From contig JAICKA010000012.1 in assembly GCA_025928185.1 (NCBI GenBank), positions 1-52,119 of the forward strand: 52,119 nt of DNA. Direction: 5' to 3'. The stretch comes from Gemmatimonadaceae bacterium (GTDB taxonomy: Bacteria > Gemmatimonadota > Gemmatimonadetes > Gemmatimonadales > Gemmatimonadaceae). Positions 3,061 through 37,820 of this stretch are shown here, in pieces. The notes beneath the pieces were generated by a model, which made no database searches, had not been told where the DNA came from, and saw only the letters and a list, made by a program, of their open reading frames with translations. The number at the start of each line of letters is the position of its first letter. The first letter of the stretch is position 1. Made by a program: the position numbers and the translations under genes.

Positions 3061-3737
3061 GGTCTGGTCCGTGGTCCATTGTCCGTTGTCCGTGGTCCGT
3101 GGTCGGTGGTCCGTGGTCGTCGCGCGGGGCGAGCCGTGGCGCGCCGAATCGGGTTGGATTGAATTGGAGGACGCGGATTTTGCAGAAACTGGAACGGCGA
3201 CGAGGCGCGAATCCGTGCCGAGTGGGGTATGGGCTCCGCGCGCCGGGCAAAAATACCACGACTTTGTGGTGGTGGCGTCCCGGTCACCTTCCCACTCCGC
3301 AAACTCCGGAGCCCCCGTGCGGCTTCTGTGGCGCGGCTGGCTCCATCTCAGGGATAGCAAAGGGGTCGCGGAGAACTGCGGAGAACTGCGGAGCAGGCGC
3401 GGAGGGGCGTTGCTGGAGATGTTGATGTTCTCCGCCGTTCTCCGCCGTTCTCCGCGGCTTCGCGACTCTCTCCGGACAAGCGATGCTGACCCAATCCCAA
3501 CAAGGGTGAAACACGGATGCCACGAACGTGACGGATCGAACGGATAAAAAGCCAAATGCTTTTGGGGCCGGGCGCGACAGACTCGGCGCGCAACTACCAG
3601 CCAATCCCCGCCTCGTCGCCCTTCCAGTTTCCGTCCTCGTCCGCGTCCCCAATTCAGTCCAAGCCGATTCGGCGCACAAGACTCGCCCCGCGACAGTCAC
3701 GGTCCAAGGACCATGGACCATGGACCATGGACCATGC
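3061..3737 (-). mobile_element. Non-coding repeat element, copy 1 (inverted ends, outer GGTCCGT arrays)
   Basis: This fills the 782-base gap between the GvpL/F start and the HDAC-like gene; no convincing gene was found in it. The outer boundaries are inverted arrays of 7-base units: GGTCCGT-type at 3061-3120 and the complementary GGACCAT-type at 3701-3737. Inside are inverted ends at about 3139-3215 and 3606-3685, each carrying GGTTGGATTGAATTGG or a close variant or its complement. The core has clusters of TTCTCCGC and its complement. Read on the minus strand it lines up with copy 2 (19163-19948) along most of its length. The right boundary is only 7 bases from the HDAC stop codon. No transposase is present. 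Confidence 0.85.
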
Positions 3738-19162: not shown

Positions 19163-19948
19163 TGGTCCATGGTCCATGGTCCATCGTCCATCGTCCGGCG
19201 ACGGTGGAGATCGACGCGCGGGGTGAGTGTGGCGCGCCGAATCGGGTTGGATTGAATTGGGGACGCTGACGAGGACGGAAACGGGCGGACGAGGCACTGA
19301 TTGGTTGCTACTGGCGCGTCGAGTCTCTCGCGCCATACCCCAAAAGATTTGGTTTTTTGTCCGTTCGATTCGTCCCATCCGTGTCATCGCAGTTCAACCC
19401 GTTGTGGCTGGGTCGGCATCATTGCGTAGGAAAGTGTCGCGAAGCGGCGGAGAACTGCGGAGCACTGCTGAGAAGGCTTGAAATTGAATTGCGAGGGGTC
19501 GAGGATCTGGTCGCCAATCAGCGATGGCACTCCCGAAAGCGTCGGGACTTTCGTGTGTCATGTGCGGCGCGATGGTTGTTCATCATTCATCAACCCTTCC
19601 CAGCAACGCCGCTCCGCGCCTCTCCGCAGTTCTCCGCAGTTCTCCGCGACCCCGTTCCTCTCCCTGAGATTTGGCCTGAGGCCGCGGTCTTATGCCGCAA
19701 CGGGCATCGCTTCAGAGAAGGCCCAGCGGGGCTGCGGAGTTGACGGATTTACGGATGGGGGAGTTGCCCGGTACGCCACCGCCACAAAGTTGTTCTTCAC
19801 CTGGCGCACGGAGCTCGTTGCGCCACTCGGAACGAATTCGCGCTTCGTTCGCCGGTTTCCGCAAAATCCGCGTCGCCCAATTCAGTCCAACCCGATTCGG
19901 CGCACCACACTCACTGCGCGCGACATCGACCGACGACGGTCCACGGAC
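19163..19948 (+). mobile_element. Non-coding repeat element, copy 2 (opposite orientation to copy 1)
   Basis: This fills most of the 861-base gap between purA and the DUF456 gene; no gene was found. Left outer array of GGTCCAT units at 19163-19200, inverted ends at about 19228-19295 and 19832-19905 with GGTTGGATTGAATTGG or its variant complement, and a short degenerate right array at 19933-19948. The core shares the order CCCCAAAAG, CCGTTCGAT, TCGCGAAG, GGAGAACTGCGGAG, then TCTCCGCAGTTCTCCGC, CACAAAG and AAAATCCGCGTC with copy 1 read on its minus strand. It ends directly at the DUF456 stop codon. Confidence 0.85.
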
Positions 19949-20440
19949 TCAGAGCACCGTCGCCGCAATCATCCAGACTGCCATCACCAGCCCGAACGCG
20001 ACCTTGAGCGCCGCTGCCGTCACTCGGCCGACGAACGCGCCCCACGCCACCCGCGTCGCCACGCCCGTGCCGCCGTGCTGACTCCACTCGAAGATGAACG
20101 CGCCGACGAACGCGCCAACGAACGCACCGACGACCGAGCCGATGATCGGTACCGGCACGCCGACGAACGCGCCGACCATCCCGCCGATGATCGCGCCCCA
20201 GCTTGCCCGCTTCGAGCCGCCGTACTTGCGCGTGAACCGGCTCGTCAGCACCCACTCGAGCCCTTCGGCGATCACCATCAGCACGCCGATCGCGACGACC
20301 GTGGCGACGCCGATGCCGGCGTGCGGTACGAGCAGATGATAGCAAAGCGCCGCGGCAAACAGCACGAGCGTGCCCGGCATCCCGAACGGAATCATCACCA
20401 GCCCGAGCAGGATCGCGGCGATCAGGAGGACGACGGCCAT
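19949..20440 (-). CDS. DUF456 family membrane protein
   Basis: 163 residues from the ATG at 20440, with GAGGGG upstream; a GTG two codons earlier is less likely. Almost wholly hydrophobic, with about four to five membrane segments and the glycine-rich repeats GAFVGVPVPIIGSVVGAFVG and GAFVGAFIFE that mark DUF456. Function unknown. Its stop codon (19949-19951) touches the right end of repeat element copy 2. Confidence 0.85.
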   Translation of the reverse strand: MAVVLLIAAILLGLVMIPFGMPGTLVLFAAALCYHLLVPHAGIGVATVVAIGVLMVIAEGLEWVLTSRFTRKYGGSKRASWGAIIGGMVGAFVGVPVPIIGSVVGAFVGAFVGAFIFEWSQHGGTGVATRVAWGAFVGRVTAAALKVAFGLVMAVWMIAATVL

Positions 20441-37154: not shown

Positions 37155-37812
37155 GTCCGGCGACGGAGGGTACCGCCGGGTGAGTGCGTTCCGCCGAGTA
37201 TGGTTGGACTGAATTGGTGACGCGGATTTGGCGGAAACTGGCGAACGTGGCGCGAAATGACTGCGCCTTTGGAAAAGCCGCTCCTCGAGCAAGAGCTCAC
37301 CAAGTCGATCATCGGTGCGTTCTACGCCGTCTACAATGCTCTCGGCTTCGGCTTCCTCGAGCATGTCTACGCGGCTGTTCTGGAGAAGGAGCTCTCGATG
37401 CGCGGATACGAAGTAGGCCGCGAAGTCCTCGTGCCAGTCTACTACCGCGGCGAGCTTGCCGCATATCAGCGGCTCGATCTCCTGGTCGGCGGCCGCGTCG
37501 TCGTCGAGGTCAAGGCCTCGGAGCACCTTCCTCCCATCGCTGAGCGACAGCTATTCAACTACCTGCGCTGCACAAAGCTGGAGGTCGGACTCCTCCTGCA
37601 TTTTGGTGCAGAGGCAAAGTTCAAGCGCCTGGTTCACACGAGCGCACACAAGCGGCCGATCTTTGCCGATCAGGGCGGTTCATTCGCGCCTCGTCCGTCA
37701 AAATCCGCCAACTCCGCGTCCCCAATTCAATCCAACCTGACCCGCCCGAACGACCCCGACGCGCAAACCGAATCCAACTCGACCGCGCCGTACGACCCCG
37801 ACGCCCACACGA
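37155..37812 (+). mobile_element. GxxExxY-carrying element with inverted ends, copy 3 of the repeat family
   Basis: From GTCCGGCGACGG at 37155 the left end matches copy 2 (19193 on) for about 75 bases with a few changes. Inverted ends lie at 37195-37258 and 37681-37740, each with GGTTGGA(C/T)TGAATTGG or its complement and the ATCCGC or complement block. Instead of the non-coding core of copies 1 and 2 it holds one complete gene. The gene's ATG sits at the inner edge of the left end, and its coding sequence continues across the right end. The element is immediately followed by the map stop codon. No transposase, no clear target-site duplication. Confidence 0.8.
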
Positions 37813-37820
37813 AACTTTAG
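37257..37820 (+). CDS. GxxExxY protein (PD-(D/E)XK nuclease-like fold)
   Basis: 187 residues. The signature Gly32-x2-Glu35-x2-Tyr38 sits in GFGFLEHVYAAVLEKEL; the nuclease-like core has RLDLLVGGRVVVEVKA with Asp74, Glu84 and Lys86, the spacing of a PD-(D/E)XK site. Typical family members stop soon after KLEVGLLLHFGAE, near residue 125. Here about 60 more residues follow that are a reading of the element's right inverted end and of a 42-base tandem duplication (SNLTRPNDPDA then SNSTAPYDPDA). The stop TAG overlaps the convergent map TAA. Function of the family is not established. Confidence 0.85.
   Translation: MTAPLEKPLLEQELTKSIIGAFYAVYNALGFGFLEHVYAAVLEKELSMRGYEVGREVLVPVYYRGELAAYQRLDLLVGGRVVVEVKASEHLPPIAERQLFNYLRCTKLEVGLLLHFGAEAKFKRLVHTSAHKRPIFADQGGSFAPRPSKSANSASPIQSNLTRPNDPDAQTESNSTAPYDPDAHTKL
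37729..37812 (+). repeat. 42-base tandem duplication at the right end of copy 3
   Basis: Two adjacent 42-base units, 37729-37770 and 37771-37812, begin AATCCAAC and share CGACCCCGACGC. Being a multiple of three, they keep the GxxExxY frame open to the map stop. Confidence 0.8.

Follow-up and report, generated by a model that had tools for sequence, protein, structure and literature searches.

GxxExxY genes as candidate nuclease partners of dispersed palindromic elements in bacterial genomes

The GxxExxY gene of the window (the whole stretch of 52,119 nucleotides analyzed, i.e. contig C217 of the Gemmatimonadaceae genome G000; 3.71 Mb in 288 contigs, ~90% complete) is part of a repeat family in which many copies lack a gene, in line with what the first-pass annotation had proposed, and the same applies to most of the other GxxExxY genes tested. 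The favored interpretation, to which a probability of about 0.5 is assigned, is that GxxExxY proteins are nuclease partners of dispersed palindromes, in an arrangement resembling that of RAYTs and REPINs, with a PD-(D/E)XK enzyme that would be responsible for the movement.

Results

Ends of the gene-bearing element

The features identified in the window are summarized in Table 1. The predicted protein scored above the curated cut-offs of both TIGR04256 (GxxExxY; 111 bits, cut-off 35) and PF13366 (PDDEXK_3; 113.6 bits, cut-off 22). Comparison of the left end of the element with the reverse complement of the right end revealed 56 identical bases out of 70 (score 42, compared with a maximum of 20 for a background of 2,731 random window pairs). 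Both ends were also compared with the four ends of the gene-free elements, and each of the eight comparisons gave a score (24–53) exceeding the background maximum. The start codon of the gene (ATG at 37257) is placed immediately inside the left end, and its reading frame crosses the right end, terminating at a stop codon at 37818–37820. The inverted ends, their presence in both gene-free elements and the position of the reading frame relative to them had all been pointed out in the first-pass annotation, and all three are borne out by these data.

Table 1. Coordinates of the GxxExxY gene, its ends and the related gene-free elements in the window.
Feature	Position	Strand	Remarks
Left end (array) of gene-bearing element	37187..37256	+	Inverted match to right end; repeated in genome
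GxxExxY / PDDEXK_3 gene, 187 aa	37257..37820	+	Profile matches
Right end, inverted copy of left end, within reading frame	37683..37752	-	End comparison
Gene-free element	3061..3737	.	Ends 3122-3212 and 3623-3692; C184-type inner arrays 3336-3410 and 3427-3471; GGTCCGT-like 7-mers outside
Gene-free element	19163..19948	.	Ends 19215-19304 and 19835-19922; C184-type inner arrays 19404-19474 and 19606-19663; GGTCCAT-like 7-mers outside

The ends of each gene-free element are likewise inverted with respect to each other (108 of 136 bases identical in the first element of the window and 93 of 121 in the second). Variable tandem runs of 7-mers (GGTCCAT, GGTCCGT) are located just outside the ends (3061–3120, 3700–3734 and 19163–19197), in inverted orientation at the opposite side, and GGTCCAT-like tandems were seen by eye outside the ends of many other copies of the element. 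A separate set of 12-bp direct repeats (CGCCGACGAACG-like) is present at 20089–20197.

Copies across the G000 genome

The window gene region gave 101 BLAST matches in G000. The ends were found at no fewer than 41 places, as 25 inverted pairs (425–755 bp) and 16 single ends; this count covers the window and 40 fetched loci, some of the single ends lie close to contig edges, and additional copies on contigs C231 and C43 are outside it. Of the three full GxxExxY genes and the single fragment present in G000, only the window gene is located within such a pair of ends, i.e. in one of the 25 inverted pairs. No gene other than GxxExxY was identified between the paired ends. The first-pass annotation had considered that the end sequence might be confined to this locus, which is not the case, and that other GxxExxY genes might lack it, which is true, but each of them has a different array.

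Indeed, the two other full GxxExxY genes (on contigs C184 and C88) are devoid of window-type ends, and each has its own arrays. Upstream of the C184 gene lie 163 bp containing CTCCGC(A/G)GTT arrays, and this stretch is the source of most of 112 matches obtained in G000. Of the 24 gene-free paired elements, 22 contain the C184 array as well (scores 72–115, compared with 20–27 for a control region downstream of the C184 gene). Moreover, seven of these 24 elements match part of the 5′ coding end of the C184 gene (score 35–45, above every shuffle maximum, the highest being 31), and two others do so above their own shuffles only; no match to the GxxExxY HMM was obtained for any of the 24. The gene-free elements of G000 are therefore nested, with the ends of one GxxExxY family placed around arrays that belong to another, in some cases together with a remnant of its coding sequence. 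The view of the gene-free copies as dependent or decayed relatives is supported to the extent that such derived forms exist, both here (22 of 24 with the C184 array, seven of 24 with a piece of the gene) and in the seven copies of genome G072 described below.

On both sides of the C88 gene, short motifs can be recognized by eye; its flanks are single-copy. A GxxExxY fragment on contig C199 (L012, 1501–1626), apparently a decayed copy, lies beside short GCGAAT-like repeats.

Distribution of GxxExxY genes and their flanks

Matches to TIGR04256 were detected in 17 of 40 genomes (G000 included) and in 44 of 198 genomes of the class; GxxExxY also occurs in records of four other phyla. The G000 element itself matches only four of the 40 genomes.

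Flanking sequences were analyzed for 57 GxxExxY genes of the 17 genomes, i.e. 63 ORF matches minus five weak or split ones at L123, L127 and L128 and the duplicate L129. Control windows taken at these loci defined the threshold (their 98th percentile), which was passed by 2.3% of 220 control windows and 2.1% of 341 control pairs. A flanking hairpin or inverted repeat above this threshold was found for 39 of the 57 genes (upstream hairpin in 14, downstream hairpin in 12, inverted repeat across the gene in 25), and 18 genes passed none of the flank tests. The similarity of the arrays followed protein identity no better than that of control flanks did (52 of the 57 genes used), and repeated 7-mers were equally common in GxxExxY and control flanks. 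The motif C[AG]CAGAG occurs at least three times in the flanks of five of 14 genes whose products contain a GPG[LFY] motif and in none of the 43 others, a post hoc observation; one control flank has six. At locus L214 of G019, two palindromes of the same family (175–305 and 1928–2045) enclose a GxxExxY gene together with a divergent neighbor gene, whose product has CxxC motifs.

Copies of the flank repeats in other genomes

In genome G020 (7.5 Mb, 4 contigs), the palindrome located downstream of the GxxExxY gene of locus L114 has at least 34 additional full-length solo sites (~140 bp, 85–94% identity; 40 candidates scored) and one partial site. The L114 gene is itself placed between two copies of its palindrome. 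Alignment of 19 sites revealed ends GACTCCACGTACG and CGTACGTGGAG, with arms consisting of three GGACTGAAGAA-like units. In the 17 of these 19 palindromes examined, a mean of 5.6 of the six reading frames contain a stop codon. The two palindromes bracketing the L114 gene fold with z of −15 and −17. Among the matches listed, the other four G020 genes tested gave self-matches alone, and the control flanks gave self-matches plus weak partial matches for one control.

Upstream, downstream and control segments were used for each of 12 GxxExxY genes from nine other genomes. Among the matches listed, ten of the 12 genes have flank repeats elsewhere in the genome, at a distance of over 2 kb from the nearest GxxExxY match. 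The minimum number of such distant sites was 31 for L058, 8 for L117, 5 for L056, 4 for L064 and L104, 3 for L070, and 2 for each of L067, L054, L110 and L062. Among the same matches, L066 had no extra copy and L109 had one, at a second GxxExxY fragment. None of the 12 control segments recurred in its own genome among the matches listed; three of them matched other genomes, probably within orthologous genes.

A wider set comprised nine loci (three of Gemmatimonadaceae or Roseisolibacter, one each of Vulcaniibacterium and Isosphaera, two near-identical ones of Saprospiraceae and two of Chloroflexi), and seven genomes were searched with flank segments. Inspection by eye showed, at all nine loci, either a hairpin or short repeated motifs that flank the gene in inverted orientation. 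The flank segments matched at least ~20 sites in Roseisolibacter, 12 in a Gemmatimonadaceae MAG, 19 in Isosphaera, four in Saprospiraceae (one of which consists of two matches at the distance expected for the ends of an element with the gene) and one in Vulcaniibacterium. The two Chloroflexi genomes contained no site beyond the gene's own flanks among the matches listed (a further 4 and 1 matches lay outside the list), and the seven control segments gave self-matches alone among those listed. One test segment, overlapping a neighboring gene, matched that gene elsewhere, and these matches were excluded from the counts.

Filled and empty sites, and derivatives

The joined flanks of 12 G000 elements were sought in five genomes of the same genus, and six of the 12 were inspected. 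At L013, where the G000 site measures 701 bp including margins, the flanks are separated by 24 nt in G003 and by 34 nt in G002; at L022 (811 bp in G000), the gap is 44 nt in G005 and 42 nt in G004. The comparison of empty and filled sites recommended in the first-pass annotation has thus identified two elements missing from the matching sites of sister species; since the comparison is between species, the difference may also reflect loss of the elements. Other sites showed gaps ranging from 75 nt (L027 site, G002) to ~340 nt, as well as large unrelated inserts. At the site of the window gene, a counterpart gene is present in G005, and other sequence (1.6–4.5 kb) in G002, G003 and G004; in G002 (L209, contig C2), several copies of another repeat, TGTCATCCTGAGGGAGCGCAGCGACC, lie between the flanks. 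A different inverted array, GACTCGGCGACTCGGCGGC, was noted by eye in G001 (L203, contig C248) at the position that corresponds to the window element at 19163–19948.

In G072, seven dispersed copies (L253–L259) match only the first 28–50 positions of the GxxExxY family. These MITE-like copies have common arrays and a 15-bp terminal repeat, GTAGTGGGTCAGTTT, with 10 exact ends. All three copies in which both ends are exact have 8–9 bp direct repeats 0–2 nt outside them (by eye). No signal of target duplication was detected in 17 G020 and 25 G000 elements.

Predicted GxxExxY protein

The residues E, D, ExK and QxxxY constitute the RecB/Cas4 motif. In an alignment of 66 sequences (two rows of which, L145 and L146, are shortened by frame breaks), the corresponding positions are conserved as follows: D74 in 63, E84 and K86 in 62 each, Q98 in 61 and Y102 in 58, with E35 falling within 61–64 and Y38 within 58–64. 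Comparison of the window gene with its G005 counterpart gave dN 0.16 and dS 1.7, i.e. a dN/dS of ~0.09, which is a rough value because dS is near saturation.

An AlphaFold2 model, based on 8 sequences, has block means of at least 85 over residues 11–130 and an overall mean of 77.2; for the last ~57 residues (from ~131), encoded through the right end and beyond it, the prediction confidence is low. Foldseek matches were weak, the best being to chains of 4ic1, SSO0001 (E 3.5e-4, TM 0.36–0.41). SSO0001 is a Cas4 protein. The next matches (E > 0.001) were a tRNA splicing endonuclease, an alkaline exonuclease and Hjc resolvases. The Cas4b profile gave weak matches for two relatives and none for the window protein. 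A PDB sequence search returned two methylases (E near 1), which were rejected as unrelated. Judging from these conserved residues and substitution rates, GxxExxY keeps a predicted Cas4/RecB-type PD-(D/E)XK active site under purifying selection, and the product under selection is a probable nuclease.

Discussion

According to the favored interpretation, GxxExxY genes belong to small palindromic elements. Inverted arrays delimit the DNA of such an element; their short motif appears about once per helical turn (~8–12 bp, by eye) and is specific to each gene. Palindromes of ~60–750 bp that consist of these arrays without the gene are found dispersed over the same genome. In the most probable mechanism, the protein may bind its own array, either as duplex DNA or as an extruded hairpin, and may cut at or near the palindrome, the element then being copied or inserted elsewhere with the help of host repair. 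The gene-free palindromes would be dependent copies that have retained the binding arrays. This interpretation draws on the flank structures of 39 of 57 genes, the dispersed copies, the conserved active site, the two elements absent from sister species, the derivatives with a 5′ gene remnant and the lack of Y1_Tnp matches in 11 of 16 genomes. It is weakened by the 18 genes without such flank structures, the single-copy flanks of the C88 gene, the few or no extra copies listed for L066, L109 and the two Chloroflexi genomes, the array and 7-mer comparisons with control flanks, the lack of an HMM match in the 24 gene-free elements, the weak fold matches, the DDE-like features of the G072 copies and the lack of a duplication signal in G020 and G000. 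A broader proposal, offered tentatively, is that these elements represent a cross-phylum class of palindromic mobile DNA, in which a Cas4-like enzyme alone might recognize inverted, turn-spaced arrays, cut the palindrome and spread both gene-bearing and gene-free copies.

The main rival is that the palindromes are MITEs of ordinary DDE insertion sequences, with GxxExxY and its arrays amplified along as nested passengers. Its best support comes from G072, where the copies, with their 15-bp terminal repeats and short direct repeats, look like an ordinary DDE element; the nested composite nature of the G000 elements also fits. We nevertheless regard it as unlikely. One gene family is tied to unrelated arrays in many genomes, and a chance passenger is disfavored by this recurrence; furthermore, the 25 pairs of G000 enclose no other gene, and neither G020 nor G000 provided a duplication signal. 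More doubtful still is a domesticated nuclease that has ceased to move the palindromes and uses them as sites, be it in replication, repair, regulation or the stability of the genome. Such a role would agree with the purifying selection (given the roughness of the dN/dS of ~0.09), the retention of a counterpart at the same place in G005 and the divergence of the palindromes (85–94% identity). On the other hand, the families differ among related genomes (as does the G000 element, confined to four of 40), the sites vary between species and some derivatives carry gene pieces, all of which is expected of mobile DNA and therefore counts against domestication.

A very improbable alternative is a REP nature of the palindromes, in which a RAYT (a Y1 transposase) would move them and GxxExxY would be a bystander. 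Their hairpins, dispersal and size resemble those of REPs and REPINs as presented in PMC3733652, but Y1_Tnp had no match in 11 of 16 genomes, including G020 and the ~90% complete assembly of G000, and matches were found in five of 14 control genomes. An artefact of chance or low complexity in G+C-rich DNA, for which the equal frequency of repeated 7-mers in control flanks might speak, has a negligible probability and is ruled out by the controls of the flank, dispersal and end comparisons, as well as by the ~140 bp copies with 85–94% identity.

The proposed partnership of GxxExxY and palindromes combines features of several known systems. In IS200/IS605 elements, a small nuclease gene has a hairpin on either side, as is seen around GxxExxY; in contrast, most of the GxxExxY hosts searched lack a Y1 enzyme, and the hairpins described here are arrays of repeated motifs. 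Like MITEs, the gene-free elements are short and have terminal inverted repeats, and some are internal deletions of the gene-bearing form, whereas their ends have retained GxxExxY, and not a DDE transposase, as the enclosed gene, and putative target duplications were seen in G072 only. The Cas4/RecB nucleases share the E, D, ExK and QxxxY residues, and the best fold match (4ic1, SSO0001), with GxxExxY. Unlike Cas4, GxxExxY is a single-domain protein of ~125 aa within its own element, and its conserved columns do not include the Cas4 cysteine cluster. In REPIN/RAYT (TnpA-REP) systems, according to PMC3733652, the RAYT gene is flanked by palindromes that also occur dispersed. GxxExxY similarly constitutes one nuclease-like gene flanked by palindromes with many gene-free copies in the genome. 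The differences are that the partner is a PD-(D/E)XK protein (PF13366) rather than a Y1 HUH enzyme (11 of 16 hosts having no Y1_Tnp), and that the palindromes are arrays of short motifs of 60–750 bp, in families private to few genomes, instead of 20–40 bp GTAG or CGTC repeats.

If the broader proposal is correct, bacterial miniature mobile DNA would have a further route of movement beside those provided by DDE and HUH enzymes. The favored interpretation would place a Cas4-like nuclease among the enzymes living with mobile palindromes, and would suggest a possible origin for many intergenic palindromes with no assigned enzyme. GxxExxY is a curated family of unknown function; the flanking arrays offer each protein a predicted DNA target, so that its function is directly testable. 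In the literature searched (without preprints and most subscription journals), no such system was described for REPIN/RAYT and nucleases, palindromes and RecB-like nucleases, or Gemmatimonas and REPs; within the same scope PDDEXK_3 was not found, and GxxExxY and PF13366 were rarely named. In PMC8934634, GxxExxY is mentioned in passing beside a possible cas4.
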